From a virus, in IMG/VR virus record IMGVR_UViG_3300036668_000044, positions 1-47,970 of that record: 47,970 nt of DNA; one strand, given 5' to 3'. Below, piece by piece: positions 1,706-42,147 of this stretch. Each line of letters begins with the position of its first letter. Within the stretch, counting starts at the first letter, position 1. Under the pieces are notes generated by a model. The model was given only the letters and a program-made list of their open reading frames with translations, ran no database searches and was not told the DNA's origin. The position numbers and the translations under genes were made by a program.

Positions 1706-3391
1706 TTGCTAATTAGGCTTCAACAAAGAAGAGGTACAGACACTCAGTGGTCTTCCTCAGACCCCGTTCTTGCTGCTGGAGAGATTGCCCTATCTACCGA
1801 TGACCAAACATTCAGGATGGGTGATGGAGTAACGGCTTGGTCCTTGTTGCCATATTTCCAGAATGCAGCAGACATAGAAGTAATCCGATTAGCCGTCTTG
1901 GCAAACGCAAACTCCTATTCTGACACAGAGCTTGATGCAGCTATCTTATCAACTAAGAGTACCCTGTCACAAGCCATCAGCGACTCAGAGACGGCATCAA
2001 ACACTTACACGGATACCGAGATAGCCTCTCTAATTGATTCAGCACCAGAAACTCTAAACACTCTTAAAGAAATAGCAGAAGCCATTGCTGAGAACGACGG
2101 AGACATCGGCACAATTCTTGCAGCTTTAGATACAAAAGCTGCTACCGACCACACGCATACCCTCTCCGACCTAACAAATGTAGACCCCTCAGGAGCTAAT
2201 TTAAACGATGTTCTGTTTTTTGACAACTCCGATCAAACCTGGAAGCCGAAAGAACTTATAGGCATCGATGCCATAACTGTAGCTACTGTAGTCCCCACAG
2301 GAGCAGGAGAGCTATCCTATAATTCCAACACAGGGGCTTTCAGTTTTGCTCCAGCCATAACTGGAGTTACAGCAGGATCTTTTGGGGTATTGAATAGTAC
2401 AACTACTTTTGCTGCATCCACAGGATCTGTATATACTTATTGGGATGGAGCAAAGAAACTAGAAGTGTCCATAACTACGACTTCTAGTTACGTAAACCTA
2501 ATAAGCCTGACCAGCGACCACTTCGGCTCGTCCTCGGTAAAGCTTGTTCGGGTGGTTGACTCTGTAGAGACAGATCTCTTCACTTGGCCAATCTTAGGTA
2601 CTAGGGACTTTGGCTGGACGTACTACGATCAGCATAATCTAGACGTAGGGACAGTAGTTACCTATAGAATTAAGGGCCAGTCGTCATCAGGTACCTCGTA
2701 CATTGGTAAAAACGCTGATGTTCAAATGCATGTTCAAGAAGTAGCTGGGGCCTTGGGAGGCCAGCCCACAAGCCCATACATATCCGTAGCCGTTGAGGGT
2801 ACTGGAAGCACCACTGGTGGCTTAGCTTACGACGACGGACTTCTTACTTACACCCCAGTGCTTCCTGCAGCAGCAGCACTATCAGAATTAACTGACGTAG
2901 ATTTAACTGGATTGTCAGACACGGATGTCTTGGCTTATGATCTAGCCTCTGGAACTTGGCTACCAGGTTCTGCAGCATCATCTGTAGCCCAACTTTCCGA
3001 CGTAGACCTAACAGGCATGATTGATAAATCCCTGTTGCAGTACTCTTCTTCATCGTATAAGTGGGAAGCTACGTCTATAGACATAGCTCCAAGTCTTGTA
3101 GCTTTTAACCCCAGGTACGGACCCTACACTTTTGAGATCACAGACAAAGACAAGATGGTAGAATGTACATCGGAGGTTACCTTCACGGTACCCAACAACT
3201 CTTCAGTAGCCTTTCCAATTGGATCAACGATAACTGTTATGCAGAAAGGTTCTGGTCAAATTACTATTGTGGGAGCTTCTGGGGTATCTCTGAACTTCAC
3301 CCCTAGCAACAAAACAAGGACCCAGTACTCTTCAGCAACTCTAATAAAGAGAGATACGAATGTCTGGTACTTGATGGGGGACCTAGAGTAA
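1706..3391 (+). CDS. Tail fibre / receptor-binding protein with Mtd-N-type N-terminus
   Basis: Protein of 561 residues. The start MLIRLQQRRGTDTQW with GEIALSTDD and MGDGVTAW (residues 1-50) is the N-terminal attachment domain seen in many phage fibres and in the major tropism determinant (Mtd-N family). A helical, coiled-coil-like stretch follows (about 60-150). Three related modules of the type L-[ST]-[DE]-[LV]-[TD]-x-V-D, then ending in W, appear at about 150-185, 390-425 and 428-455. The C-terminus (about 470-561) is a beta-rich tip with VTFTVPNNS and WYLMGDLE, as in other phage fibres. The start codon is TTG, chosen because AGGAGA precedes it and the family N-terminus begins there. It likely binds the host receptor. 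It is followed one base later by the Cys-rich gene, suggesting joint expression. Confidence 0.8.
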   Translation: MLIRLQQRRGTDTQWSSSDPVLAAGEIALSTDDQTFRMGDGVTAWSLLPYFQNAADIEVIRLAVLANANSYSDTELDAAILSTKSTLSQAISDSETASNTYTDTEIASLIDSAPETLNTLKEIAEAIAENDGDIGTILAALDTKAATDHTHTLSDLTNVDPSGANLNDVLFFDNSDQTWKPKELIGIDAITVATVVPTGAGELSYNSNTGAFSFAPAITGVTAGSFGVLNSTTTFAASTGSVYTYWDGAKKLEVSITTTSSYVNLISLTSDHFGSSSVKLVRVVDSVETDLFTWPILGTRDFGWTYYDQHNLDVGTVVTYRIKGQSSSGTSYIGKNADVQMHVQEVAGALGGQPTSPYISVAVEGTGSTTGGLAYDDGLLTYTPVLPAAAALSELTDVDLTGLSDTDVLAYDLASGTWLPGSAASSVAQLSDVDLTGMIDKSLLQYSSSSYKWEATSIDIAPSLVAFNPRYGPYTFEITDKDKMVECTSEVTFTVPNNSSVAFPIGSTITVMQKGSGQITIVGASGVSLNFTPSNKTRTQYSSATLIKRDTNVWYLMGDLE

Positions 3392-4368: not shown

Positions 4369-4599
4369 ATGACATTGCCATTACCAGACCTAGACCCCGT
4401 ACTCGAGCTGAAGCGTCCCCTTCACGAATTCTACCTAGCAGTCGTACACGAGGGTGTTGTTTATCAGGTTCTTAATTGTGAAGGCCAAGCCGCTGCGTTG
4501 TACATGTCAAACCCGACTTTTGTTCAAGTTGCCAATGGTGCCACAACCGTAGGTCAACTCTATGATGCTTCCACGGGTACATTCTCTAACGCAGAATAG
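4369..4599 (+). CDS. Small conserved phage protein, perhaps fibre-associated
   Basis: Protein of 76 residues beginning MTLPLPDLDPVLELKRPLHE and ending in FVQVANGATTVGQLYD followed by a short polar tail. This type of small protein, with an 'F-V-x-V' strand and a 'V-G-x-x-Y-D' strand near the C-terminus, often sits beside tail fibre genes in phages. No catalytic motif is present. The start is fixed by the -10 box 6 bases upstream. A fibre accessory or assembly role is inferred from position only. Confidence 0.6.
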   Translation: MTLPLPDLDPVLELKRPLHEFYLAVVHEGVVYQVLNCEGQAAALYMSNPTFVQVANGATTVGQLYDASTGTFSNAE

Positions 4600-17382: not shown

Positions 17383-18030
17383 ATGGCATATACACGTGGT
17401 ACGAGTGCAAACATCATTGTTGGTGCAGCAGCTCTATTTACATACGAACTTGGCGAGTTGAATGACGCAGCCATGCCAGCCTACGTTGATAACGAATCCC
17501 TAAAGGATACGCTTGAGGCAGATGCTGACTTCCGAAATGTTGGTTACACCAGCAACGGACTGGAGCTACAGTTCCAGCCAGACTTCGGAGAAGTAAGCGT
17601 TGACCAGGTACTAGACGTTGCAAAACTTTACAAGCAGGGTATGCAGGTTAACCTGAATACATCGTTTGCAGAGGCAACACTAGAGAACCTACTGTTTGCA
17701 GTAGCTGGACAGGATGACGACCTAGTCGACGTAGTCGGCACAGGTGGAACATCTTCCACACTAAGCACCCTAAACCTGTCCGCAGGTGACATCGGTGAGT
17801 GTCCAGTAGAGCGTGGTTTGGTTGCTGTTGGTCCAGGTACAGGAGACTGTGCTGCTGGTTCAGCAATTGAGCGAATCTATGTTGCATACCGTGCACTCTC
17901 AATCGAGAGCGTTACAGTATCAGCTAAGCGTGACGAAGCAACAATGTTTGAGGTAAGCTTCCGCTTGCTACCAAACAACGCTGCATCATACGGAAAGATC
18001 GTTGACCGCACACTAGAAATGCCTGCGTAA
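17383..18030 (+). CDS. Major tail (tube) protein
   Basis: Protein of 215 residues, largely beta (NGLELQFQPDFGEVSVDQV, YRALSIESVTVSAKRDEATMFEVSFRLLP), as expected for a siphovirus tube subunit. It has its own promoter, a good ribosome site and an intrinsic terminator right after it, so it is a single-gene unit. This fits the need for many copies per virion. It lies between the tail terminator and the tail assembly chaperones. Codon use is visibly richer in CGT, GTA and GCA codons than in neighbours, consistent with high expression. Confidence 0.8.
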   Translation: MAYTRGTSANIIVGAAALFTYELGELNDAAMPAYVDNESLKDTLEADADFRNVGYTSNGLELQFQPDFGEVSVDQVLDVAKLYKQGMQVNLNTSFAEATLENLLFAVAGQDDDLVDVVGTGGTSSTLSTLNLSAGDIGECPVERGLVAVGPGTGDCAAGSAIERIYVAYRALSIESVTVSAKRDEATMFEVSFRLLPNNAASYGKIVDRTLEMPA

Positions 18031-18055: not shown

Positions 18056-18087
18056 CCCCCTAGTGTAATGCTAGGGGGTTTTCTTTT
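18056..18087 (+). terminator. Rho-independent terminator after the tail tube gene
   Basis: A perfect 8-base stem, CCCCCTAG (18056-18063) with CTAGGGGG (18071-18078), around a TGTAATG loop, followed by TTTTCTTTT. The T-tract runs straight into the next promoter. Confidence 0.95.
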
Positions 18088-18095
18088 GCTATAAT
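18087..18095 (+). promoter_or_regulatory. Leaderless extended -10 promoter (TGcTATAAT) for the long tail chaperone
   Basis: TATAAT at 18090-18095 preceded by TGc; 6 bases later the ATG at 18102. The -35 position falls within the terminator hairpin, so no -35 is available. The mRNA should begin at the A of ATG. Confidence 0.75.
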
Positions 18096-18101
18096 AGAAG
18101 C

Positions 18102-18794
18102 ATGGCAACTAGAGTATATAATTCAGGATACGTCTACACAGTAGACGGGGCAGAGATTTACGTAACCCCACTTAAAATAAAGTTTCTCCGTGACTTCATG
18201 GTTGAGTTCGCAGAGGTAAGGACTTCTAAGGGTTCTAACGATGATGTAGCTCTTAAGCATCTCATAGAGTGCATAAGAATATCTATGAGACAGTACTACC
18301 CCTCAATAAAGACATCCGAAGAAGTCGAGGACAACTTTGATGTTCAAACTCTTTACGAAATACTCAATTACGCAGCAGACATCAGTCTGAGTACAGAAAA
18401 GCCTGAGCCAATATCTGATCAGGCTAAAGAGTCAGAAGCAAGCTGGGAAACTTTTGACCTTGCCAGTCTAGAGGCAGAAGCTTTTCTTCTGGGAATTTGG
18501 AAAGACTATGCGGAGTTGGAGAGTTCTATTTCCTTGCCAGAACTAAGTAAGACCATAGAGATGAAGAGAGAGCTTGACTACGCAGAGAAGAAGTTCTTGG
18601 CAGCTATGCAGGGTGTTGACCTGGATGAGCAGACGGGTAAGAAAGAGGCTAACGCATGGGAAGAGATGAAGGCCAGAGTATTCTCACGTGGAAAGACCTC
18701 AGACCCTGACGATATTATAGCCTTACAGGGAAACAACGCTGCAAAGGCTGGTTTCGGTATAGGTATGGGCCTGTCGTATGAGAAGATCGGATAA
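18102..18794 (+). CDS. Long tail assembly chaperone (G-T equivalent in one ORF)
   Basis: Protein of 230 residues. Residues 15-97 form the 'G' half (VTPLKIKFLRDFMVEF ... LIECIRISMRQYYPSI). The second half (about 140-230, LPELSKTIEMKRELDYAEKK ... WEEMKARVFSRG, LQGNNAAKAGFGIGMGL) resembles the 'T' extension that other phages add by a programmed -1 frameshift. Here both halves are in one uninterrupted frame. It sits before the tape measure gene, the diagnostic location, and should keep the tape measure protein soluble and recruit tube subunits. It is leaderless, hence perhaps poorly expressed. The short paralogue follows at 18858. Confidence 0.75.
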   Translation: MATRVYNSGYVYTVDGAEIYVTPLKIKFLRDFMVEFAEVRTSKGSNDDVALKHLIECIRISMRQYYPSIKTSEEVEDNFDVQTLYEILNYAADISLSTEKPEPISDQAKESEASWETFDLASLEAEAFLLGIWKDYAELESSISLPELSKTIEMKRELDYAEKKFLAAMQGVDLDEQTGKKEANAWEEMKARVFSRGKTSDPDDIIALQGNNAAKAGFGIGMGLSYEKIG

Positions 18795-18809
18795 TCCGTC
18801 CCCTAACTA

Positions 18810-18818
18810 TGCTATAAT
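18810..18818 (+). promoter_or_regulatory. Extended -10 promoter (TGcTATAAT) for the short tail chaperone
   Basis: TATAAT at 18813-18818 with TGc before it. Transcription should start about 18825, at the base of a small hairpin (18823-18840). Confidence 0.75.
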
Positions 18819-18822
18819 TGTG

Positions 18823-18840
18823 TAGACCAATAAAGGTCTA
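18823..18840 (+). promoter_or_regulatory. 5'-end stem-loop in the leader of the short tail chaperone mRNA
   Basis: TAGACC (18823-18828) pairs with GGTCTA (18835-18840) around AATAAA. It would lie at the very 5' end of the transcript, where such hairpins can protect mRNA. The ribosome site GGAGAGG follows at 18842-18848, 9 bases before ATG 18858. Confidence 0.6.
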
Positions 18841-18857
18841 TGGAGAGGTAAACACAA

Positions 18858-19172
18858 ATGGCTACAACAACTATCGGGCAAACCGAGATCGAACTAATGG
18901 ATGGAACTAAGCTAACCGTTCGTCCCCTAAAGGTTTCACTGCTACGCTCATTTTTGAAGAAGTTTGGAGAAATTTCTGAGGTTGCTACAGACAATGACAA
19001 GTCAATGGACATTCTTATGGAGTGTGTGCAGATTGCAATGCGTCAGTACAAGCCAGAAATTGCGGATGATCTAAAGGCTCTTGAAGAGAACCTAGATCTT
19101 CCAACTGTTTACAAGGTGGTAGAAGCAGCATCAGGCATAGTCCTAGATGATGCCAATGTTCTTGCAACATAA
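18858..19172 (+). CDS. Short tail assembly chaperone (G-only paralogue)
   Basis: Protein of 104 residues that aligns with the first half of the preceding gene: shared V-x-P-L-K-[IV]-x-x-L-R-x-F near residue 25, and E-C-x-x-x-x-M-R-Q-Y-x-P near residue 60, with roughly one third identity by eye over about 80 residues. It lacks the T-like C-terminal half. It has its own promoter, a hairpin-capped leader and a proper ribosome site, all suggesting it is made in excess over the long form. It ends 24 bases before the tape measure gene. Together the pair probably replaces the frameshift-made G and GT pair. Confidence 0.75.
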   Translation: MATTTIGQTEIELMDGTKLTVRPLKVSLLRSFLKKFGEISEVATDNDKSMDILMECVQIAMRQYKPEIADDLKALEENLDLPTVYKVVEAASGIVLDDANVLAT

Positions 19173-19195: not shown

Positions 19196-22100
19196 ATGGC
19201 TGATTTCGAAGCTAAATTCGGCGTAAACATAGATACAACGGCAGCTCTTGCATCGATTAAGCAACTTCAGTCTCAAATATCAACCTTTCATCGGCAGCTT
19301 GCAAAGGGGTCGGCAGTCAACACTGCTAGCCAACAGAACCTACAACGTAACTTAATATCCGACATAAACTCATCTGGTAAGTTTAATGCCAGTATGCAAA
19401 GAGTGCATTCCACCACAGAGAACTTCACGAATGCTCTTGAGAAAAACAAGCTGTCTATGGGACAGTACTTTAGATACGCTGGTGGGGCATCTAAAACCTT
19501 TGGTCGTAAATTCATTAGTGAGTTTAATACCATAAACAAGGTAGCACGAGAACGTGTAAAAACCCTGCAGACCCAATACATTGCCATGGGTCGAGACGCT
19601 AATGGGGCACTACAATCTATAGCAGTCAGACCTTTGAGTCTGGACATGAACAATCTCGCCACTAAAACAGCTATAGCAGCCCAGAAGCAACAAATCTTTA
19701 ACCAACTGCTTAGGCAGGGGTCTACCAACCTACTGAACTTCGGAAAGAATACTCAGTGGGCTGGTAGACAGCTTATGGTTGGTTTTACTATTCCTCTAGC
19801 AATCTTCGGATCCATGGCTGGTAAAACATTCATGAAGGTCGAAGAAGAAGCTATTAGATTTAGGCGTGTCTACGGAGAGCTCTTCACCCCACCAGAAGAA
19901 GCCAACGCCATGATTGACCAGCTTAAAGAGTTGGCCTCAGAGTTTACCCAGTATGGAGTATCCCTAGAATCAACCCTGGCCCTAGCCTCAGACGTAGCTG
20001 CCATGGGTAAGACAGGGGCAGACCTAATGGCCCAAGTATCAGAAGCTACAAGGCTGTCCGTGCTGGGATCTGTGGATCAAGCAAAAGCCCTAGAGGCTAC
20101 GATCTCTGTAACAAACGCTTTCGGAATCTCGGCAGAAGACTTAGCAGGAAAGATAGACTTTCTTAACGCTGTAGAGAACCAGACAGTGACGGCCATTGAA
20201 GACTTAACCATAGCTATTCCAAAAGCTGGTCCAGTTATCCAACAGCTTGGTGGAAGCGTAGAAGACCTAGCCTACTTCTTGACCGCCATGAAAGAGGGTG
20301 GCATCAATGCCTCAGAAGGAGCTAACGCTCTAAAGTCGGGTCTTGCCAGAATAATTAACCCAACCATTAAAGCATCAGAAATGATGAAGGGTCTGGGAAT
20401 TAACATTAATGGTATTGTTGAGGGCAACGCAGGAGACATAAAGACAACCGTAACAGAGCTTGCTTTTGCGCTAGATGAATTGCAGCCTTTGCAAAGATCG
20501 AGAGCTATTGAAGAACTTTTTGGAAAGTTTCAGTTCGCAAGAATCTCAACCCTATTCCAGAACATAACAAAAGAGGGTAGCCAGGCAGCAAGGGTTCTAG
20601 ATTTAACTAGAGCTTCAACTCAAGAGCTTGCAAACCTATCTTCCAAAGAGCTTGGAGCTGTTTCAGAGTCAACCACCTTCGCATTCAAGAAGGCTTTTGA
20701 GGACTTGAGGATTGCCATTGCTCCTATTGGAGAGCAATTCATCAAAGCAGCCACACCTATTATTCAGTTTGCTACTAAACTTCTTAGCCAATTCGATAAG
20801 ATGGGTGACGGAGCAAAGAACTTTGTCGTAATCTTAACAGCTGTCCTGGGACTAATAGCCCCCGTAGCTCTGATGACGTTTGGTCTTCTTGCTAACGGCG
20901 CAGCAAACATTCTTAAAGGTTTTGCAGCTCTAAGAACTATGTTCCTAAGAACAGCTCAGGACACCAGCGTACTGGGAAGCCAAACTCAGTACCTGACACA
21001 GGAGCAACTGATAGCCAACGCAGCATCAGCATCTCTTGAGCAGTCACACATGAGGCTAACTCAGCAGTTCACATCCGAGACTACAGCTGTATCCCTATTG
21101 ACAGCAGCATACGAAAAAGCAGCTCTCGCTGCATCAAGGCTAACAGCAGTTCGTCCCATGCCAACATCCATCGGAAAAGGTGCGGTCAAAGGATACGCTT
21201 CTGGTGGAATAATCTCAGGTGAGGGAACAGGGACTTCAGACTCTATCTTGGCGCAGGTCTCTAATGGAGAAGCTATCATACCAGCCAAGGTAGTAAGCAA
21301 GAATCCAGGATTTTTTGCTAAGCTTATTTCAGGAGGAATCCCAGGATTTGCTAAAGGCGGAATTCTCGGAGGTAAGGTCAACGTCGGAGGCAAAGAGTAT
21401 GGTGTCCCAGATGGAAGAAGTTCAGGAGCCATGCAGTCCAGAATACAAGGTCTCGCCGATGCAGGGACATCCCTTGACTCCCTGACCTCTGTTATGGATA
21501 AGCTAGAGGCCCAATCAAAATTAACCGCAGCAGCCCTTAAAGCAGAGGTCAGAGCCAGAGGACTGTCTCCTAAAGGTGGCCCAAGCGAGGTACAGAGAGC
21601 TCACCTTACCCTGCCTACAAAAAATGCAGACGGATCTATGGGTCTTTCTGGTCTAACCAGAGAAATGTCCAGAGAGCAAAACATAGCACTTAGGGCTGGG
21701 CAGAATAAGGATCAGTTCTTAAAAGAGTATTCTTCAAGAAAAGGTGGCCTCACCGCTGCAGGAGAAGCTGGCATGCGACAGACGGGAGCCCTAGGACCCA
21801 GGGAATCTATGTCTTCGGATATGGTAGCTACCATGCAACAGCTTGACGACGAAATAGGAAAGTTAGCCCACGAGCTCTCTGTAGACGGTTTAGTATCTGA
21901 CGCCGAGCTAGCAAAAGCTGCAGACATCGTAATCAGAAAAGCAGAGTCTAAGTCAGGGAATACGGGAACTGCAGGCAGTGCTCTGAGAGAAAGACAAAAA
22001 GCCCAAGTAGCTACTAGGTCAGCAATATCATCAAAGATGAATGCGGAAAACATTAGGTCTGGAAAAACTTCTCTTCGAGGTAATGGTGTCACTCTCGTTG

Positions 22101-25100
22101 ATTCAAATGGAGCAGTTCAAGGCAAACTGCACAAGGCTGATGCTGATAGGGCTCACGCTGCTAGATCTGCTCAGGAGAAAAGAGAGATCACAGCTGCTTC
22201 TAGGGTAAGTAGCTCAACGACAGCTCTAGCTGGACAAAGGTCCTACACAGGATATAAGCAGATGTCTTCACCAGCAAATAGCCAGTCCGCCCTTATCAAA
22301 AAGGGAGCTGAAGACACAAAAGCCTATAACAAGGGAGTCCAAAGCAACAAGTCTCAAGACCAGTATATGCAGAACAGAGATCGGAAGAGCCCACACAGGC
22401 TCGCTGCCAAAGATGGATCCGATGACGCTAAAGCTTACAACCAGGGAGTAAAGTCTGGGTCTAGGAGATCCTCAAGTGCTGGCCAGCAGAGGCAGTCTGG
22501 AATCGTAGATGCTGCAAGTCAGAAGCCAGCAGGCAAAAGAAGGTCCTCAACTCCTCAGCAAAACACGTCTGGAGATGCAGCGAGAGCTGCGGTTGCACAA
22601 AGGCAATCCGTTGTAGCGACCCAAGCCCAAAGCGCAGCTACAAAAAACAGCACTGCAAGACTTCAGAAGATGTCAGGTGCCCTAAGCGGAGGAATGTTTG
22701 CTCTTACCTCTCTTGCAGGTGCAGGAATGATGGCAGGTGGAAAGCTTGGAGAGGTATCTCAGAAGGTCTTCCAGTTGTCAGGAGTCTTCTTTGCCTTAAT
22801 CCAGATAACTCAGATGCTTACAAAAGAAAGTTTCTTGCTTTCCGTAGCCAACAGAAAAAGAGCAGCCTCAGAAGCTGCAGCCACGGTCGCTTCCGCAGGT
22901 GGAGGAGGATTGAAGAAGGGGCTTGCAGGTCTCAGCGCTTTCGTTGGAGGTCCTATGAAGATGGCTTTTGTCGCAGCTGGTCTAGCTGTGGCAGGACTTA
23001 TCGCTGTGTTCATGCACTTTAAGAAAAAATCTGATGAAGCAGCAAAGAAGGTAGAGAATCTAGGGAAAGCTTCAAACTTTAGCGCAGAAAAGCTACAAGC
23101 TCTGGGTACGCTTTTTGGAAAAGACATAAACACTAGCTCCCCTGGTTCGTTAGGTGGCAAGACCAACGGAAAGAACGCAGACCAGAAGAAGCAGATTGAC
23201 GAGTTGTCAAAGAGTGAAGAGCTAAAGGCTCAGTTTGGAGATGAGATTGCTGGACTTGAATCCGCTTCTAATGCTCAGGCTAAGTCAATAATGAGGTCTT
23301 TAGCTTTTGCCTTAGCCTCTGGAGGGGTAGACGAAGAGTCCGCAGGAATAATTCTACAGTCAATAGCCATCGCAGCAGAGAAGGGAAACTTAGGTCTAGA
23401 TTTTTCTAAGATTCCAGTTACAATCCCCGACTTAACAAAAGACAGACTCGAAGTTTCTGAATCCGCTAATAGCGCTTTCGACAGTGCCTTAGTGCGAAAC
23501 ACTCCGAACCCCACAGATGTTCAAAAAGCAAGACAGGTATTTGAGGAATTTGGACAACAGCTAACTCAAGATGTTATATCCACGGCCTCTGACCTGGGGT
23601 CTCTAAGGACTGAGTTTGAGAACTCAGCGATGTCAAGTCTAGACTTCTCCACTAGCGTGACAAAGTTGCTAAGGCCTTTGACTAGTCTAGAAGAAGAAAT
23701 GCAAAAACTATTGCTGCCTAACCTAGCTGAGCAGTTGAACCTAGATCCAGAAGCCTTTGTTAACGTTGAAAACTTAGCTGGAGCTCTCTCAGTTCTTAAA
23801 GCAGTAGCCATGGGGATTGACATCGACGCCTCGTTCCTGGAGACATTCAATAAAAGACCTAAGAACTCCGAAGACAAAAAAGAGCAAGCCTTGGCTCAAA
23901 GAGAGCTAAACAAGATCATAGAGAAGAACATAGAGCTTACAATTAAGGGCAGAAAAGCTACCGAAGATAAAATCATTACCGATCAAGCAGCAGCTGACCT
24001 AGCCGACCTTGAAGCAGAAGTCATAGCAGCTAAAGAGAAGAAAGCAGCTTTTGAAGCCTTGGTTCTCGCAGGCAAAGACCAAACAGAAGCTTTAGAGATG
24101 GTATCAAACGGTAACATGCTAGTAGCTCTAACCTCAGCAATTGCTGCAGATGAGGTTAATCGCTTAAACAACAACATGGGAGATACAACCGCTGTGGAGG
24201 ACGCTATGGCTTTGTTTGCAGAGCTGGCAGCCCAAGAGTTGCCTTCCTTTGACCGAACCTCAGGCTCAGGAGATAAGAGCCCCTACCAGCTAGCCATTGA
24301 GTCACTAAAAGAAGAAAGAGCTCAGATAAAGAATAACCTAAAAGCTTACGGACTACTACGTAAAGCTGGTATGGATATTTCTGCAGCTTCTGATGCAGCG
24401 TCTGACTCAACCTTAGCTCTTGCTCTAGCTACTACAAAAGTAGGAAGTAAGAAGTATAAGGAGATCTTGTCTCTTGTAAAAGAGATTGACGTAGTAAGCA
24501 AGAAGAATGCTTTGAGAGAACTCCTTGGTGGCAGGTCAGAACAGATTCAGATGCAATCTCAGTTCTTAAAGATAGTTCCGATTCTTAGTAAGATGGGGGT
24601 TGAGGCACAGGACATAGTCGACATTCTTGGAAATGCAGACTTAGCAAAGGCTTTCATTGCAGATCTTAAAGATGGAAAGCTGGATGCTGCAGCACTGAAA
24701 AACTACCTAAAGCAAATTGAAATGATGAAGTCTCTTGAGATTCAGGTAACTCTTACGACTCCTGAAGGTCAGGCAGCAGCTGTAAGCGAAGCCTTTTCTA
24801 ATATCTCAGAATGGTTCGCAACAAAGAAAGCAGCCATAGATATTCAGTTCCGACCTCGGTTCGACGCTGCAGGTAAAATAATAAAAGAAGCAGAAGAGGC
24901 TATCGAATCCTATACAGACAAAGTAAGCGAAAACGAATACCAGTTGTCTGGAATAGAAAGGTCTGAAGATGCTATCAACGAAAAATACGAAGCAAGAATT
25001 AAGTCTCTGGAGGCAATTCAGAACGTAAACAAGCTCATTCAGTCACAAGAGAAGGCGTCTCTAAACGTAGCTGACGCACTGTCTCGTGGTGACATAGCTG

Positions 25101-26035
25101 CTGCAGCACAGGCGGTACAGGAAGCCAGGTCCCAGGCAGCTTCAGACCAAGCTGACACGATGAAGGCAAACATTGACACAGCTAAGGAAAGAGAGTTAGC
25201 TTCCATAACTTCGACCAGTGGCCAAACGAGGGTTGAGCTGGAGAAGCAGATTGCTGGCTGGAAGCAAGAGATTGAAAGAATTGAGCACGATACCTTGGTC
25301 CCAGCCCAGAGGTCTCTAAACATAGCGGAAAAAGCAAGAGACGCACAGTTTGACACTCTGACCTATCTGGGTAGAACAGAAACGCAGTGGGGAGACATTG
25401 AGAACGCAACTAACCTAGCTCGAGTTGAAGCAGAGTCTTACATGGAGGCAATAAAGAAAGCTTTGGCTCTTCTTCCAGGACTAACTGGAGGTAAAGTAGA
25501 CTTAGGTATGGGTCCCGTAGACAAGGGCAACTCCAACGACTCTGAGACAGCAGAGCTTAACAGGCTAATTCAGATTACTAGAGACAGAGTCCGTAGTGGC
25601 AACTTTGAAGATGCAGCCATGGGGAAAAGGCTCGAGAGCATAAACATTGAAAGAATTAAAAAAGTTAGAGGCTTGACTGGAGATCAAAATACTATGGGTG
25701 GCAGAGGATACGCCATGGGTGGAGTGGTCAGAGGATATTCTATGGGAGGCCTGGTTCCCAAGTACTTTGCTAGCGGAGGCTTTGCTATGGGTTCTGACAC
25801 TGTTCCAGCAATGCTGACTCCAGGAGAGTTCGTAATGCGCAAGTCAGCAGTAAAGAGTTTCGGGGTAGATAAGATGAAGTCAATGAATAATGGAACATCC
25901 TCAGCTGATTCAGTGTATAATTATAGCTTGAACGTAAATGTTAAGTCAGATGCCAACCCTGACCAGATTGCTAGTGCAGTGATGCAAAAAATAAAGAGTA
26001 TAGACTCTCAAAGAATACGTGGAGGTAGGTCGTAA
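19196..26035 (+). CDS. Tape measure protein
   Basis: Protein of 2279 residues that sets tail length and is ejected with DNA. Hydrophobic segments lie at about 185-205, 541-575, 1165-1205 and 1239-1272 (for example FVVILTAVLGLIAPVALMTF), consistent with membrane insertion. The region 60-560 resembles the phage tape measure core family (TP901-like; LEATISVTNAFGISAEDLAG, MKEGGINASEGANALKSGLA). Residues 690-1150 are Ser/Lys/Gln-rich and low in structure. Helical, coiled-coil-rich parts occupy 1270-2150. Two SGG...G-[TS]-D-[ST] blocks occur, near 665-700 and at the C-terminus (FASGGFAMGSDTVPAMLTPG). No lysozyme or peptidase motif is visible. GAGGTG precedes the ATG. Confidence 0.95.
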   Translation: MADFEAKFGVNIDTTAALASIKQLQSQISTFHRQLAKGSAVNTASQQNLQRNLISDINSSGKFNASMQRVHSTTENFTNALEKNKLSMGQYFRYAGGASKTFGRKFISEFNTINKVARERVKTLQTQYIAMGRDANGALQSIAVRPLSLDMNNLATKTAIAAQKQQIFNQLLRQGSTNLLNFGKNTQWAGRQLMVGFTIPLAIFGSMAGKTFMKVEEEAIRFRRVYGELFTPPEEANAMIDQLKELASEFTQYGVSLESTLALASDVAAMGKTGADLMAQVSEATRLSVLGSVDQAKALEATISVTNAFGISAEDLAGKIDFLNAVENQTVTAIEDLTIAIPKAGPVIQQLGGSVEDLAYFLTAMKEGGINASEGANALKSGLARIINPTIKASEMMKGLGININGIVEGNAGDIKTTVTELAFALDELQPLQRSRAIEELFGKFQFARISTLFQNITKEGSQAARVLDLTRASTQELANLSSKELGAVSESTTFAFKKAFEDLRIAIAPIGEQFIKAATPIIQFATKLLSQFDKMGDGAKNFVVILTAVLGLIAPVALMTFGLLANGAANILKGFAALRTMFLRTAQDTSVLGSQTQYLTQEQLIANAASASLEQSHMRLTQQFTSETTAVSLLTAAYEKAALAASRLTAVRPMPTSIGKGAVKGYASGGIISGEGTGTSDSILAQVSNGEAIIPAKVVSKNPGFFAKLISGGIPGFAKGGILGGKVNVGGKEYGVPDGRSSGAMQSRIQGLADAGTSLDSLTSVMDKLEAQSKLTAAALKAEVRARGLSPKGGPSEVQRAHLTLPTKNADGSMGLSGLTREMSREQNIALRAGQNKDQFLKEYSSRKGGLTAAGEAGMRQTGALGPRESMSSDMVATMQQLDDEIGKLAHELSVDGLVSDAELAKAADIVIRKAESKSGNTGTAGSALRERQKAQVATRSAISSKMNAENIRSGKTSLRGNGVTLVDSNGAVQGKLHKADADRAHAARSAQEKREITAASRVSSSTTALAGQRSYTGYKQMSSPANSQSALIKKGAEDTKAYNKGVQSNKSQDQYMQNRDRKSPHRLAAKDGSDDAKAYNQGVKSGSRRSSSAGQQRQSGIVDAASQKPAGKRRSSTPQQNTSGDAARAAVAQRQSVVATQAQSAATKNSTARLQKMSGALSGGMFALTSLAGAGMMAGGKLGEVSQKVFQLSGVFFALIQITQMLTKESFLLSVANRKRAASEAAATVASAGGGGLKKGLAGLSAFVGGPMKMAFVAAGLAVAGLIAVFMHFKKKSDEAAKKVENLGKASNFSAEKLQALGTLFGKDINTSSPGSLGGKTNGKNADQKKQIDELSKSEELKAQFGDEIAGLESASNAQAKSIMRSLAFALASGGVDEESAGIILQSIAIAAEKGNLGLDFSKIPVTIPDLTKDRLEVSESANSAFDSALVRNTPNPTDVQKARQVFEEFGQQLTQDVISTASDLGSLRTEFENSAMSSLDFSTSVTKLLRPLTSLEEEMQKLLLPNLAEQLNLDPEAFVNVENLAGALSVLKAVAMGIDIDASFLETFNKRPKNSEDKKEQALAQRELNKIIEKNIELTIKGRKATEDKIITDQAAADLADLEAEVIAAKEKKAAFEALVLAGKDQTEALEMVSNGNMLVALTSAIAADEVNRLNNNMGDTTAVEDAMALFAELAAQELPSFDRTSGSGDKSPYQLAIESLKEERAQIKNNLKAYGLLRKAGMDISAASDAASDSTLALALATTKVGSKKYKEILSLVKEIDVVSKKNALRELLGGRSEQIQMQSQFLKIVPILSKMGVEAQDIVDILGNADLAKAFIADLKDGKLDAAALKNYLKQIEMMKSLEIQVTLTTPEGQAAAVSEAFSNISEWFATKKAAIDIQFRPRFDAAGKIIKEAEEAIESYTDKVSENEYQLSGIERSEDAINEKYEARIKSLEAIQNVNKLIQSQEKASLNVADALSRGDIAAAAQAVQEARSQAASDQADTMKANIDTAKERELASITSTSGQTRVELEKQIAGWKQEIERIEHDTLVPAQRSLNIAEKARDAQFDTLTYLGRTETQWGDIENATNLARVEAESYMEAIKKALALLPGLTGGKVDLGMGPVDKGNSNDSETAELNRLIQITRDRVRSGNFEDAAMGKRLESINIERIKKVRGLTGDQNTMGGRGYAMGGVVRGYSMGGLVPKYFASGGFAMGSDTVPAMLTPGEFVMRKSAVKSFGVDKMKSMNNGTSSADSVYNYSLNVNVKSDANPDQIASAVMQKIKSIDSQRIRGGRS

Positions 26036-35874: not shown

Positions 35875-36201
35875 ATGGATTACTTGCATCACAAGCCGAT
35901 AAAGAAGTTCTCGTTAGAGGGAACAATTCACGACGATGCCTCTTTCATAAGATTAAAAATAGAATACGTAAACTTACTAAAAAGCGAGATGAGACTTTCT
36001 GGCTATGTACAAAGAATAGATATTGACCCAGACTTCACAATAGGGTATAATGAAAAAACAGAGTACTACAACTTCGAACTAACACTATATGGAATATACA
36101 CAGGAAAGAAAAAGAGTGAATGGATAGAGTCAGTAAACGCAACACAGGTCATCTATACTCCGAAGAGCAAATCAAACGAGTTCTCACAGGAGCAGGCCTA
36201 A
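35875..36201 (+). CDS. Hypothetical protein between helicase and primase
   Basis: Protein of 108 residues, mixed alpha/beta, with FIRLKIEYVNLLKSEMRLSG and YNFELTLYGIYTGKKKSEW. Its last 82 bases overlap the primase gene in another frame, an unusually long overlap for this genome. It has an apparently leaderless promoter. No family is recognised; a primosome accessory is possible by location. Confidence 0.55.
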   Translation: MDYLHHKPIKKFSLEGTIHDDASFIRLKIEYVNLLKSEMRLSGYVQRIDIDPDFTIGYNEKTEYYNFELTLYGIYTGKKKSEWIESVNATQVIYTPKSKSNEFSQEQA

Positions 36202-37064
36202 CTATAGAGGGTGAAGTCGACGTAGACTTTCTCCTTTTTTGCCCATTCCATCCAAACCATCGCACCCCAGCTGGAGAAGTCGATAAATCAAAGGGAACCT
36301 TCTTTTGTTTTTCATGTCACAAAGTTGCAGACTTGATAGAGCTAGTCATGCACACATCCTCCAGAACATATTTTGAGTCTGCTAGATTTATTAAGAGTAA
36401 AGAGACTGAGATTAATCTCGCTATGGAGATTGACAGGCAGCTATACGTAAAGCCCCTATATGTTCCCTACGACGACCTTCAGATCATAAGGCTCTCCTCA
36501 GAAGCTTTAGAGTCCACACGAGCTAAGGAATACTTTTCTGGTAGAAAAATTACAGAAGAGTCTATGCGAAAGTTTAGACTTGGATTCTCTGAGAGGCAGG
36601 ACATGGTGACAGTCCCAGTCGCAGCACCAGACGGAACTAGCATTGGGTTTGTGGGTAGGTCGGTAGAGGGGAAGTCATTTAAGAACACTCCAGGTCTACC
36701 AAAAAGTAAAGTATTGTTCAACCTTCATAGGATAAAAACATCCAACAGTGTGTATGTTGTCGAGTCATCCTTTGATGTCATTAGGCTTGATCAGTGTGGC
36801 CTACCAGCAGTTGCTACTCTAGGATCTAACGTATCCTCAATACAAATAGGACTTCTTCAAAAGTACTTCAATAATATTTTTGTTATTGCAGATAACGATG
36901 AGGCAGGGGGGAATATGGTAACTAAGCTTCAAGATAAGCTTAAGGGCCGTGTATCCGTAATAAAGATAGACAAAAAATATAAAGACGTTGGAGACATGCC
37001 AGACGAAGAGATTAAAAAGTTAGACATTGCGTTTGACAAATCTATAGAGGGCATGCTACAATAA
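36120..37064 (+). CDS. DnaG-like primase (zinc finger plus TOPRIM)
   Basis: Protein of 314 residues that should lay RNA primers for replication. It has an N-terminal CHC2 zinc finger: CPFH (C43 region) then CFSCH about 25 residues later. The TOPRIM domain shows VYVVESSFDVIRL (catalytic Glu, about 212-224) and VIADNDEAGG (DxD, about 258-267). The length is about half that of bacterial DnaG and it lacks the helicase-binding C-terminal domain, like many phage primases. The start at 36120 overlaps the previous gene by 82 bases; no later in-frame start comes before the zinc finger, so this start is preferred. Confidence 0.88.
   Translation: MDRVSKRNTGHLYSEEQIKRVLTGAGLTIEGEVDVDFLLFCPFHPNHRTPAGEVDKSKGTFFCFSCHKVADLIELVMHTSSRTYFESARFIKSKETEINLAMEIDRQLYVKPLYVPYDDLQIIRLSSEALESTRAKEYFSGRKITEESMRKFRLGFSERQDMVTVPVAAPDGTSIGFVGRSVEGKSFKNTPGLPKSKVLFNLHRIKTSNSVYVVESSFDVIRLDQCGLPAVATLGSNVSSIQIGLLQKYFNNIFVIADNDEAGGNMVTKLQDKLKGRVSVIKIDKKYKDVGDMPDEEIKKLDIAFDKSIEGMLQ
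37033..37062 (+). promoter_or_regulatory. Sigma70-type promoter with -35 for the ssDNA-binding-like gene
   Basis: TTGACA at 37033-37038, an 18-base spacer, and TACAAT at 37057-37062 preceded by TGc. The box overlaps the primase TAA stop (37062-37064). The leader is about 26 bases and contains AGGAG before ATG 37095. Confidence 0.75.
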
Positions 37065-37094
37065 AAACAACTGAAAAACTAACAGGAGAAAACC

Positions 37095-37748
37095 ATGAGC
37101 GTAATCAAAGGGCTAAAAGATATCAATGCAATACTTGATAAGCCAAAGTATGAATCAACAGGTCAGAAGATCCGTTGGGTAAAACTAGCAGACGGTCAAG
37201 CAGCAAAGATCCGTTTTGTAGAAGAGCTTGACACAGAATCAGCAAGCTATAACGATGACAGGGGACTGTCAGTAGTTATTTCAGAGCACACCAATCCAAA
37301 AGACTACAAGCGAAAAGCTGCTTGTACCCAGGAAACAGAAGGTCGCTGCTTTGCTTGTGAGATGTCTCGTAAAGAGCCTAAAGCTGGTTGGAGAAACAAA
37401 CTCCGCTTTTACTGCAACGTTCTTATGGACGATGGAATGGAAGAGCCTTACGTAGCCGTATGGTCTCAGGGTGTCTCGAAGCAATCAGCCTTTAACACGA
37501 TTCGGGAGTACGCCCTAGAAACTGGTAGCGTGTCAAACCTGGAGTGGAAGCTAAAGCGTAACGGAGTCGGAACTGAGACTAACTACACGCTCCTTCCTAC
37601 AAAGCCAGACTCAGAGCCATACACATGGCCTGACCTTGAGCTTCCAGACCTAGAGAAGGTTGTTCGTGAAGTTCCTTATGCAGAACAAGAAGCCTTCTAC
37701 CTAGGCTTTGATCAGCCATCAGTCACATCCGCCAACATTGATTGGTAA
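37095..37748 (+). CDS. Putative single-stranded DNA-binding protein
   Basis: Protein of 217 residues. It has a beta-rich core (IRWVKLADGQAAKIRFVEEL, NKLRFYCNVLMDDG), a possible zinc site with C-x(n)-C-x2-C (ACTQETEGRCFACEMS, about 76-91) and a C-terminus that becomes acidic and ends NIDW. These features fit phage ssDNA-binding proteins of the gp32-like type. The genetic setting fits: strong promoter with perfect -35, good ribosome site, and its own terminator, placed between primase and polymerase. OB-fold assignment needs a profile search. Confidence 0.65.
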   Translation: MSVIKGLKDINAILDKPKYESTGQKIRWVKLADGQAAKIRFVEELDTESASYNDDRGLSVVISEHTNPKDYKRKAACTQETEGRCFACEMSRKEPKAGWRNKLRFYCNVLMDDGMEEPYVAVWSQGVSKQSAFNTIREYALETGSVSNLEWKLKRNGVGTETNYTLLPTKPDSEPYTWPDLELPDLEKVVREVPYAEQEAFYLGFDQPSVTSANIDW

Positions 37749-37762
37749 TTAACTAACATTCT

Positions 37763-37793
37763 TGGGGGTAGCAATCACGCTGCCCCCATTTTT
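37763..37793 (+). terminator. Rho-independent terminator after the ssDNA-binding-like gene
   Basis: GGGGGTAGC (37764-37772) pairs with GCTGCCCCC (37779-37787), 9 pairs with one wobble, around AATCAC, followed by ATTTTT. Confidence 0.92.
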
Positions 37794-37809
37794 GTCTCTC
37801 TTCAGCCCC

Positions 37810-37838
37810 TTGACAATAACAAACAACTGTGTCATAAT
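37810..37838 (+). promoter_or_regulatory. Strong sigma70-type promoter for the DnaE operon
   Basis: TTGACA (37810-37815) matches the -35 consensus exactly, with a 17-base spacer and CATAAT (37833-37838) preceded by TGt. The leader is about 25 bases with AGAAGGA, 6 bases before ATG 37869. It is the clearest full promoter in the window. Confidence 0.88.
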
Positions 37839-37868
37839 CTTAATAATACAAAACATAGAAGGAAATCA

Positions 37869-40800
37869 ATGAGTTACGCTGGACTACACGTACACACGCA
37901 CTATTCACTATTCGACGGTATTGCTACTCCACAAGAGTATGTCGACAGAGCCGTAGAGCTGGGTATGCCAGCAATTGCTATCACCGACCACGGAAGTCTC
38001 TCTGGACACCGTGAGATGTATCGTGCTGCAAAGGCAGCAGGCATCAAGCCCATCCTCGGAATCGAGGGATACATTACTAAGGATCGCCTTCTCCACGAAG
38101 ACAAGAAGCACTTGAATGATCCACTAGACCTGAACTACAACCACCTAATTATTCTTGCAAAGAATGACAAGGGTTTAGAGAACCTAAATAAGCTAAACGA
38201 ACTTGCTTGGACTGAAGGATTTTATCGTAAGCCTCGTATTGACTGGGTAATCCTGGAACAGTACAAAGAAGGACTGATCGTAACCTCTGGATGTCTCTCT
38301 GGTGTCCTAGCAAAAGCCATCGAGGCCGACGAGCTAGCCTACGCAAAAGAGCATGTCCAGTGGTGTAAGAAGACTTTTGGAGATGACTATTACATAGAGG
38401 TAATGCCTCACAACCCACCAGAGATCAACAAGACTCTTTTGGCACTCGCAGATGAGTTTGGGGTTACTCCAGTAGTCACACCTGATTGCCACCACTCAGA
38501 TCCAGGGCAGAAAGACATCCAGGAGCTAAAGTTAATCCTAAATTCCTACTCTAATAAGACTCTTAAAGATGTTACTTACGAGAAGTCAACTAAGCACGAG
38601 AAGCTAAACGACCGTCTAGATTACCTGTACGGCGCAGATCGCCCAATGACCTTTAAGCGATTTGACATATACCTACTGTCTGACGAAGAGATGCACACAG
38701 CCATGAAGGCTCAGGGTATTGACCGAGAAGACATGTACCAAGCAACTAGAGACATTGTTGCAAAGGTAGAAGACTACGACATTAGAGACCACCAAGACCT
38801 CTTGCCAGTACAGTATCAGAACCCAGACAAAGAACTTTATGACCTAGCAATTGCAGGACTAAAGATCAGAGGCCTAGATACAAACCAAGAGTACCTTGAC
38901 CGTTTGGATGTAGAGCTGAAAGTTATTAAGGACAAGAAGTTTGGTCCTTACTTCCTAGTCGTAAGGTCTATGATTGCTTGGGCTAAGAAAGAAGATATCA
39001 TGGTTGGGCCTGGTCGAGGCTCTGCTGCTGGCTCTTTGCTTTGCTATGCTCTAGAGATTACAGATATAGATCCTATAGTTCACGGGCTCCTATTCTTTAG
39101 GTTTATTAACCCAGACCGTAATGACTTCCCAGATATTGATACTGACATTCAGGACACCAGAAGAGAAGAAGTTAAGGATTACCTGACTAGGCAGTATCGC
39201 CACGTGGCATCTATTGCGACCTTCCTCGAGTTTCGTGGTAAGGGAATGATTAGAGACATTTCACGTGTCCTCAATATCCCCCTGATGGATGTGAACAAGC
39301 TTCTTAAACTTGTCGATGACTGGGAAGACTTTACTATGTCTAAGCAGTCTGCGTGGTTTCGTGAAAAGTATCCAGAGGTAGAGGTATATGGTAACCAACT
39401 CCGTGGTCGGATCCGAGGCACAGGAATTCACGCTGCTGGTGTTGTAACTTCTAAGGAGCCAATATTTAAATATGCCCCTCTAGAAACAAGAACCTCTCCA
39501 GGAACTAAAGAAAGAATTCCTGTAGTCGCTGTAGACATGGCTGAGGCAGAGAGAATTGGTCTAATTAAGATTGACGCTCTAGGCCTCAAGACTCTGTCCG
39601 TGATTCAGGATACACTTAAGATTGTCGCTAGTAGGACTGGTAAGAAGATTGACCTCCATGATATAGATATGGATGACAAAAATGTCTACGCCATGCTGTC
39701 CGATGGTCACACAAAGGGTGTCTTCCAGTGTGAAGCAACTCCATATACAAATCTTCTAGTTAAGATGGGGGTGAAGAACTTCTCAGAGCTGGCAGCTTCT
39801 AATGCCTTGGTCCGCCCTGGCGCTGCAAACACTATTGGTAAAGATTACATTGCTCGCAAGCAGGGTAGGCAGAGTATTAGCTACCACCACAAAGTGTTCA
39901 AGGAGTTCACGGAAGAGACTTATGGTTGTATCTTGTACCAGGAGCAGGTCATGCAAGCGTGTGTCCACCTTGGAGGAATGACAATGGCAGAAGCAGACAC
40001 TGTTCGTAAGATCATTGGAAAAAAGAAGGATGCCAAAGAGTTTGACCAGTTTAGGGATAAGTTTGTAAAGGGAGCATCTCAGTTTGTATCCCCAAACGTC
40101 GCAGGAGACCTCTGGAGCGACTTTGAGGCCCACGCAGGATACTCTTTCAATAAGTCTCACGCCGTGGCTTACTCGACGCTCTCATACTGGACTGCATGGT
40201 TAAAGTATGTCTATCCTCTAGAGTTCATGTATTCAGTGCTCAAGAATGAAAAAGATAAGGATGCCAGGACCGAGTATCTTATCGAGGCTAAGCGTATGAA
40301 TATTCCCGTAAGGCTTCCTCACATAAACGACTCTGATGCCGACTTTAAAATTGAAGGCAAAGGAATAAGATTTGGTCTAACCGCTATAAAGTATATATCC
40401 GACAACATTGCTGGAAAGTTTATGGAAGCTAGGCCATTTTCATCGTACAAGGAACTTCATGAATTCACAACCTCAAAGGGTAACGGGGTAAACACTAGAG
40501 CCCTATCATCTCTAAAGATTATTGGAGGAGCAACCTTCGATGATAATCCTAGGAATGACGAAGAGATTAAAGAGAATCTATACGAGTACTTAAACTTGCC
40601 AGAGTTTAATATTCCTGTGCCTTCGCACTACCACGCCTTTATGGACGAGGTATGTGACTTCGAAGAAAAGGGATCTTTTGTCTTAATGGGAATGGTCAAG
40701 AGCATAAAGCGTGGAAAGGGTTGGTCTAGGGTAGAACTTTTGGATAAAACTGGAAGCGTAGGTATCTTTGACGATGAGGACACCACTATTGAGCCAGGAC

Positions 40801-41153
40801 AGACTTACCTGTTGTTAGCAAGTGATAACAGAATTGTTACAGCTATACCAGCAGCTGAGATAAAGGATTCTAAGGCCTCAATTATTAGGTTCTTAAACTA
40901 CAAGACATTGCCCTTTAAGGACGATGAGTTGTACGTTGTAGCATTTAACACCAGGGTTACGAAAGCAGGCAAGAAAATGGGATCCCTCACCCTTGCCGAT
41001 GCTTCACGTGACCTCCACCCAGTCACTGTATTTCCTACGGCATTTCCAAAGGCATACATGAAGATTAAAGAAGGAACAGCTTATAGGTTCTCTCTAGGAA
41101 AAACGAAAGATGGAACAATTATTTTGGAGGATGTATTAGATGACAACGTTTGA
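37869..41153 (+). CDS. dnaE: DNA polymerase III alpha subunit (DnaE-type replicase)
   Basis: Protein of 1094 residues, a family C DNA polymerase. The N-terminal PHP domain starts with LHVHTHYSLFDG (H7, H9, H11) and continues AITDHGSLSG and TSGCLSG, with its metal-binding residues apparently intact. The palm carries GPGRGSAAGSLL (about 380-391), PDIDTDIQ (about 420-427, two catalytic Asp) and KIDALGLKTL (about 565, third Asp). A helix-hairpin-helix region and an OB-like domain (about 935-1000, VLMGMVKSIKRGKGWSRVEL) follow. It is slightly shorter than cellular DnaE (about 1160). Having a bacterial-type replicase rather than a family A or B polymerase is characteristic of some actinobacterial and other phages. 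Its end overlaps the recombinase gene by 14 bases. Confidence 0.95.
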   Translation: MSYAGLHVHTHYSLFDGIATPQEYVDRAVELGMPAIAITDHGSLSGHREMYRAAKAAGIKPILGIEGYITKDRLLHEDKKHLNDPLDLNYNHLIILAKNDKGLENLNKLNELAWTEGFYRKPRIDWVILEQYKEGLIVTSGCLSGVLAKAIEADELAYAKEHVQWCKKTFGDDYYIEVMPHNPPEINKTLLALADEFGVTPVVTPDCHHSDPGQKDIQELKLILNSYSNKTLKDVTYEKSTKHEKLNDRLDYLYGADRPMTFKRFDIYLLSDEEMHTAMKAQGIDREDMYQATRDIVAKVEDYDIRDHQDLLPVQYQNPDKELYDLAIAGLKIRGLDTNQEYLDRLDVELKVIKDKKFGPYFLVVRSMIAWAKKEDIMVGPGRGSAAGSLLCYALEITDIDPIVHGLLFFRFINPDRNDFPDIDTDIQDTRREEVKDYLTRQYRHVASIATFLEFRGKGMIRDISRVLNIPLMDVNKLLKLVDDWEDFTMSKQSAWFREKYPEVEVYGNQLRGRIRGTGIHAAGVVTSKEPIFKYAPLETRTSPGTKERIPVVAVDMAEAERIGLIKIDALGLKTLSVIQDTLKIVASRTGKKIDLHDIDMDDKNVYAMLSDGHTKGVFQCEATPYTNLLVKMGVKNFSELAASNALVRPGAANTIGKDYIARKQGRQSISYHHKVFKEFTEETYGCILYQEQVMQACVHLGGMTMAEADTVRKIIGKKKDAKEFDQFRDKFVKGASQFVSPNVAGDLWSDFEAHAGYSFNKSHAVAYSTLSYWTAWLKYVYPLEFMYSVLKNEKDKDARTEYLIEAKRMNIPVRLPHINDSDADFKIEGKGIRFGLTAIKYISDNIAGKFMEARPFSSYKELHEFTTSKGNGVNTRALSSLKIIGGATFDDNPRNDEEIKENLYEYLNLPEFNIPVPSHYHAFMDEVCDFEEKGSFVLMGMVKSIKRGKGWSRVELLDKTGSVGIFDDEDTTIEPGQTYLLLASDNRIVTAIPAAEIKDSKASIIRFLNYKTLPFKDDELYVVAFNTRVTKAGKKMGSLTLADASRDLHPVTVFPTAFPKAYMKIKEGTAYRFSLGKTKDGTIILEDVLDDNV

Positions 41154-42147
41154 AGAAGCTCTAGCAATGCTCAACCCGAAGCTTAGGAAGAAGGTTGCGT
41201 CAGGTATTGGCATTAAAACTGAATTCCAGGCTACCCCTAGTATGGGCCTGAATAAGGCCTTAGGTGGCGGACTGCCTTATGGAAGGCAGGTTCTTCTCTG
41301 GGGTAGCAAGTCCAGTGCAAAGTCATCTTTATGTCTTCAGACAGTAGCAATGGCACAGAAGGATGGAAAGCTTTGCGCATGGGTAGATGCCGAGATGTCT
41401 TACGATGAAGAGTGGGCACTTGCTCTAGGAGTAGACACCTCACAGTTAATATACTCTGAGGCCAGAAGCACTAATGACATGGTCGATGTAGTAGTCGGTC
41501 TTCTAAATGCAGGAGTCGATATGATTGTCATTGATAGTATTAGTTCTCTTCTGCCAGCGGTATACTTTGAAAAAGATTCTGATGAGCTAAAGCAGCTGGA
41601 GAATACAAAGCAGATAGGTGCAGAATCTAAAGACTTGAAGCATGCTTGGTTAATGATCAACTATGCAAACAACAGAGAAAAGCCAGCACTGATCATGGCA
41701 ATTTCTCAGTCTAGGACTAACATTGGTGGGCTGTATGCTACTCAGCAGCCATCTGGTGGTCAGACTACTCAGTTCATGTCCTCGACAATCATAAAGCTAT
41801 TCTCTTCAACTTCTGATAACAATGCTATCAAGCATAAGATTCCCGTAGGAGACAAGCTTATCGAGCAGAAGGTTGGCCGAAAGGTGCGCTGGGAAGTAAC
41901 CCACTCAAAGACATCTGCTCCAGGAGAGACCGCAGAGTACGACTTCTACTTTAAGGGAGACCTTATAGGAATAGATACCGTTGGAGACCTAGTAGACACA
42001 GCAGAGATGATGGGGCTAACAGAGCGTGGAGGAGCTTGGTACAAGCTTCCTAACGGTGAAAAAGCTCAGGGTAGGGATGCCTTTATCAAGTACGTAAAAG
42101 AAAACCCAGAGTACCAAGAAGAGTTAAGGGGGAAGATCCTTGGCTAA
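41140..42147 (+). CDS. RecA/UvsX-like recombinase
   Basis: Protein of 335 residues for strand exchange during recombination-dependent replication or repair. The Walker A region reads GSKSSAKSS (G55 to S63): the usual last Gly before Lys is Ala60, as in UvsX-type recombinases that also depart from the consensus. Walker B is MIVIDSISSLLP (about 127-138), and the DNA-binding L2 loop region is ISQSRTNIGGLYATQQPSGG (about 188-207). GGAGG lies 9 bases before ATG. It overlaps the polymerase gene, so both are made together. No C-terminal RecA regulatory tail is present. Confidence 0.9.
   Translation: MTTFEEALAMLNPKLRKKVASGIGIKTEFQATPSMGLNKALGGGLPYGRQVLLWGSKSSAKSSLCLQTVAMAQKDGKLCAWVDAEMSYDEEWALALGVDTSQLIYSEARSTNDMVDVVVGLLNAGVDMIVIDSISSLLPAVYFEKDSDELKQLENTKQIGAESKDLKHAWLMINYANNREKPALIMAISQSRTNIGGLYATQQPSGGQTTQFMSSTIIKLFSSTSDNNAIKHKIPVGDKLIEQKVGRKVRWEVTHSKTSAPGETAEYDFYFKGDLIGIDTVGDLVDTAEMMGLTERGGAWYKLPNGEKAQGRDAFIKYVKENPEYQEELRGKILG

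Follow-up and report, generated by a model that had tools for sequence, protein, structure and literature searches.

Tail assembly chaperones as two separate genes: very probable descent from a frameshifting gene in a siphovirus-like lineage

How does a phage obtain two forms of its tail assembly chaperone when they are encoded by two genes rather than one? In most long-tailed phages, the two forms of this tail-building helper protein come from a single gene via a ribosome slip. Few recoding events in phages are as widely conserved as the frameshift in the chaperone gene, whose presumed purpose is to fix the ratio of the two products, G and GT. The question is raised by a virus record of 47,970 bases with a G+C content of 44% (the whole stretch of DNA that was analysed, hereafter the window), in which a long gene with both halves in frame is followed by a second, short gene. 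In phage lambda, gpG and gpGT are made at about 30:1 by -1 frameshifting, with the tape measure as the binding partner of G and the tail tube protein as that of T (PMC5009743).

The long gene (TAC-NC, 18102..18794, + strand) is one open frame of 230 codons (230 aa), and the short gene (TAC-N, 18858..19172, + strand) has 104 codons (104 aa). These coordinates and lengths are exactly those of an earlier note on this DNA, which had also correctly described the long form as holding both halves in one continuous frame. Three parts can be distinguished in the long protein: an N domain (residues 1-97), a linker (about 98-113), and a T-like domain (about 114-230); the short protein is a paralogue of the N domain. 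The two genes point in the same direction and are flanked by the major tail protein and tape measure genes, an order that is repeated in relatives. The upstream neighbour (17383..18030, +) matches phrog_2175 (5e-31) and phrog_885, a major tail protein family (0.004), and is syntenic with genes labelled major tail protein in Streptomyces phages; the downstream neighbour (19196..26035, +) matches the tape measure family phrog_10030 (6e-98).

Paralogy and fusion are evident in the sequences themselves. In BLASTP, residues 1-96 of each protein align over about 97 aa with 34% identity and 62% positives (E=1e-19). The similarity between the two proteins is therefore strong, and the claim that the short gene repeats the first half of the long one, at about one third identity, is borne out. 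Both the long N half and the short protein match phrog_10504, and the C half of the long protein belongs to a separate family, phrog_10474; the N domain is thus common to both forms and the extra C domain is found in the long form only.

The assignment of these proteins as chaperones rests on relatives, position and structure. A Pfam search of the window proteins gave no significant match, and the PHROG families that they match are of unknown function, as would be expected if the two were not chaperones but small tail proteins unrelated to each other, or if the locus were an artefact of assembly. That reading is scarcely credible, since the arrangement repeats in 59 divergent clusters from independent contigs and the Streptomyces phage homologues are annotated as frameshifted tail assembly chaperones. 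Among named chaperone profiles, the window proteins themselves have a weak direct match (phrog_1932, E=0.056), and aligned relatives match phrog_1932, 344 and 330, all tail assembly chaperones. Structural resemblance to a named chaperone points the same way: the BFVD entry that fits the short model best is a viral protein with the name tail assembly chaperone (E=3.6e-7, TM 0.76). The AlphaFold2 models (pLDDT 84.5 for the long and 70.7 for the short form) have similar N domains, each with a beta-hairpin and a set of helices. A Foldseek search of the models against the PDB returned nothing significant, and a sequence search of solved structures gave only noise, including meaningless low-score prion rows. 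In a VIA comparison the HK97 tail assembly chaperone 2ob9 ranked first for both models, at low Z scores of 4.0 and 4.5 that alone prove little. Taken together, the two genes are very probably a tail assembly chaperone pair equivalent to lambda gpG/gpGT but carried as separate genes, derived from an ancestral frameshift gene that was duplicated and then fused and split.

A survey of relatives for the split or frameshifted state, named in the earlier note as a check, has now been run on viral contigs, one genome contig and nine phage records, with loci classified by profiles of the N and T domains. It covered 382 loci, a count that exceeds the number of contigs because some contigs were matched by more than one query; 376 were classifiable and six hold too little of the region. 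N and T are fused in one frame and followed by a second N in 194 of the 376, and in 178 the only N is followed by a T that lies in the -1 frame. The second N is absent from the remaining four fused loci because their contigs end within 119 nt. Mixed loci, that is, a fusion that lacks a second N although its contig runs on, or a frameshift gene with a second N, were not found among the 376. Clustering at 80% T identity gave 109 uniform clusters, of which 59 are fused and 50 frameshift. The junction of N and T in the fused long protein lies where a frameshift product would join the two domains.

Frameshifting relatives also occur among isolated phages. A tblastn search of 50,697 phage records matches Streptomyces phages of the family Stanwilliamsviridae, and in all nine records of this family that were examined a single N gene precedes a T in the -1 frame, annotated in two of them as joined frameshift genes. 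With two long and two short forms as queries, matches came only from Streptomyces phages and three Rhodococcus phages, at one place per record; the records examined among them have two-frame arrangements, and this search found no split arrangement in an isolated phage. As for prophage or cellular copies, there was one genome-contig match, in a MAG labelled cyanobacterium, with the frameshift arrangement. In one fused locus (L034 in our numbering of loci), an ORF of 209 aa, methyltransferase-like by eye, lies between the long and short genes and widens the gap to 776 nt, compared with a median of 47; the pair therefore tolerates separation.

If the split genes descend from a frameshift gene, the fate of the slip site is of direct concern. 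Among 177 frameshift loci with a resolved start, 156 have a canonical heptamer at the same codon (about 98-100, inside the overlap): C_CCA_AAC in 94, G_GGA_AAC in 37 and C_CCA_AAU in 25. The other 21 lack a canonical heptamer there, 20 having none at all and one only AAACCCA. Among the representatives inspected, those without a heptamer (L084, L085, L088, L097, L098 and similar loci) are of the Boydwoodruffvirinae type, with GAC CCG GAA at this place. The heptamer has also changed in place, with G_GGA_AAC used in one frameshift group comprising L129, L176-L180, L187-L190, L195, L196, L200, L207-L209 and L223 and C_CCA_AAC/U in most others, and in two frameshift-type loci (L355, L358) it lies only about 10 nt from the stop codon, compared with the usual 34-46 nt.

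In the fused clade, the short genes have kept the G-like tail and lost the heptamer. The decayed site of the window's short gene (19146..19157, +) reads GAT GAT GCC AAT, continuing GTT CTT GCA, where frameshifting sisters have GAC GAC CCA AAC/T (followed by CTT CTA GCG after AAC). No heptamer was found in the window's short gene or at the junction of its long gene, where T is already in frame. Near the end of the short gene, heptamers occur in five of 58 fused representatives, with differing sequences, and the -1 frame of this gene shuts within 20 codons in nearly all of them. Extension of the short gene at a slippery site is accordingly not indicated, and residual slippage in either gene was rejected, as the fused clade has no conserved heptamer in either. 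A variant is that the long gene slips at its junction, in the manner of dnaX, and so releases a short product to which the separate short gene is a supplement. Scattered in-frame heptamers, mostly A-runs, do occur near the long junction in 12 of 59 fused representatives; however, they vary in position and sequence, none is a canonical heptamer at the ancestral codon and the window's own junction has none, so that this variant is very unlikely.

Trees of the chaperone domains built with FastTree group the fused loci together. The 59 fused representatives form a single clade in their T domains (SH 0.979), and likewise in their long N domains (0.997) and their short N domains (0.946). In a tree of concatenated tail protein and tape measure sequences, the fused clade is nested among paraphyletic frameshift lineages, and frameshifting is therefore the older state. 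Since duplication and fusion happened about once, the coupling of the fusion with a second copy counts as one event kept through diversification and not as many independent ones.

One frameshift lineage, L212, shows a significant conflict between trees: its tape measure groups with those of the fused loci L144 and L169, and its major tail protein falls outside the fused clade. This suggests gene exchange inside the tail module, although L212 may represent a single reversion to frameshifting. Reversion inside the fused clade had also seemed to be indicated by L125 and L129, which were nested in it in an initial T tree sparse in frameshift relatives, and was rejected when they fell outside with more relatives. 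Mosaicism is the simpler reading, because that nesting disappeared with more sampling and because the tail protein favours a position of L212 outside the clade.

The history would then have run as follows. In the ancestor, a single gene would have yielded both G and GT, the ribosome slipping into the -1 frame at a heptamer of the C_CCA_AAC/U type. On the stem of the clade, the G gene would have been duplicated along with its promoter. The first copy would have been fused in frame to T, its -10 box coming to lie at the start codon and giving a predicted leaderless message, and the second would have retained both the tail of G and a leader with a Shine-Dalgarno sequence while losing T and the slippery site.

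The stoichiometry of the two forms may be set by initiation instead of recoding, as the earlier note had proposed together with a promoter for each gene. Copies of a predicted extended -10 promoter, TGCTATAAT, do lie upstream of both (18087..18095 and 18810..18818, +), and the window has six exact TGNTATAAT sites where 1.75 are expected, a number reached in none of 100 shuffles. Between the tail protein gene and the long gene is an intrinsic terminator (18056..18086, +), with a 10-pair stem CCCCCTAG...CTAGGGGG and a T-run; a terminator-like hairpin with a T-run stands upstream of the long gene in all 58 fused representatives. The promoter lies 6 nt upstream of the long ATG, and a leaderless start, also claimed earlier, is predicted from this spacing and from the lack of a Shine-Dalgarno sequence. 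Both features are conserved across the clade: in 55 of 58 representatives a -10 box that matches at 5/6 or better, usually with TG, has its end 5-9 nt from the long ATG, at exactly 6 nt in 44, and a Shine-Dalgarno sequence precedes the long gene in 0 of 77 distinct fused upstream regions.

The short gene has signals of another kind. Its promoter is followed by a leader of about 33 nt (18-41 nt across the fused clade), and a -10 is located 9-50 nt upstream in all 77 distinct regions. A Shine-Dalgarno sequence is present in 76 of these 77, as AGGAGG in 54; the figure for the N gene of frameshift loci is 23/24. The strong ribosome site attributed to the short gene does exist in the window, but it is weaker than stated, being only the Shine-Dalgarno-like GGAGAGG (18842..18848, +) with its GAGG about 9 nt from the ATG. 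The hairpin said to cap the leader did not hold up. The small 5' hairpin GACC-AATAAA-GGTC (18825..18838, +) is not significant (z -1.4), and only 14 of 58 representatives have one that beats 95% of shuffles; a conserved hairpin in the short leader was rejected on these grounds.

A strong terminator-like structure between the long and short genes is absent from 57 of 58 representatives (present in one), so readthrough from the long promoter should add to transcription from the short gene's own, and the short form is probably in excess. To judge from sequence alone, then, the long message is predicted to start without a leader and the short gene to be transcribed from its own promoter and by readthrough, signals that would probably favour an excess of the short form. 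Leaderless initiation is not unique to the long gene: at window positions 4369, 6033, 11617, 33130, 35875 and 43398, a -10-like hexamer ends 6-8 nt before an ATG that has no Shine-Dalgarno sequence, and leaderless expression, as predicted from this signature, looks common in this phage.

The earlier note had also supposed that the duplicate could have diverged in function. Divergence is indeed seen, but it is the N domain of the long form that has diverged: mean pairwise identity among 58 representatives is 47% for the long N domain, compared with 67% for the short protein, the conserved copy, and 65% for T, and the short protein is more conserved than the long N domain in 1634 of 1653 pairs. 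Such unequal divergence is impossible for a frameshift gene, in which a single N domain serves both products. A residue difference also runs through the whole clade, with PLKIKYLR in the long form and PLKISLLR in the short.

These differences are consistent with a second function for the duplicate, in which the two N domains would form a specialised hetero-oligomer, as opposed to a mere reset of dosage; we consider this possible, at somewhat less than an even chance. Frameshifting forces the N domains of G and GT to be identical, and the split may have left the long N domain free to take on a task of its own, such as initiating the complex at one end of the tape measure, a suggestion that deserves the same tentative standing. 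Faster change can equally reflect relaxed constraint on a minority subunit, however, and most invariant positions are common to both copies, whose models have the same beta-hairpin and helices. In the mechanism proposed for the separate genes, the N domain would coat the tape measure protein; the long form, expected to be the scarcer of the two, would use its T domain to recruit the major tail protein. The most complete version, namely a full natural transition from frameshifting to two separately initiated genes in which leaderless versus Shine-Dalgarno initiation sets the chaperone ratio and the long N domain is a distinct nucleating subunit, is put forward tentatively, as a possibility rather than the expected outcome.

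Several known systems can be compared with this locus. Lambda gpG/gpGT and the Stanwilliamsviridae chaperones occupy the same position, between the major tail protein and the tape measure, and in the Stanwilliamsviridae the N and T domains are homologous to those described here; in both cases, however, one gene with a -1 frameshift stands where this lineage has two genes and no slip site. In TP901-1, an engineered G-T fusion without a separate G gave particles that look complete but are non-infectious (PMC4493119). This construct resembles the long form in its one continuous frame and differs in having lost the separate G, whereas in the natural loci a second G gene is always retained; the construct's lack of infectivity fits the absence, among the surveyed loci, of a fusion without a second G.

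The closest parallel is found in some T4-like phages, for which the passage of PMC10885494 that cites Vladimirov et al. (2022) reports one short gene and one longer fused gene without a frameshift. The likeness is one of arrangement, with descent from a common pair no more than a possibility; PF12322 (T4_baseplate) has weak matches from only three of 73 members, with a best E of 0.0012. T4-like phages are myoviruses, whereas the present lineage is siphovirus-like and actinophage-related; in contrast to the T4-like pair, the order here is long gene before short, a separate promoter is predicted for each of them, the long message is predicted to lack a leader, and close relatives still frameshift. 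The earlier reading of a split state without frameshifting is thus supported, but not as an unprecedented one: the arrangement is a further natural case of a known solution, unusually well sampled, with the transition preserved in living relatives.

A large lineage without frameshifting, beside sisters that keep it, constitutes a natural experiment in the reasons for keeping recoding and in what can take its place. Two questions can now be put to a direct test: can genes with separate initiation maintain the ratio, and must the common N domain be identical in the two forms? For annotators, the missing frameshift at such loci is not an error. Elsewhere in the window, a protein encoded at 1706-3391 has a major tropism determinant N-terminal domain (PF18454, E=2.5e-9), and a replication block at 36120-42147 contains homologues of DnaG-like primase, DNA polymerase III alpha and RecA.
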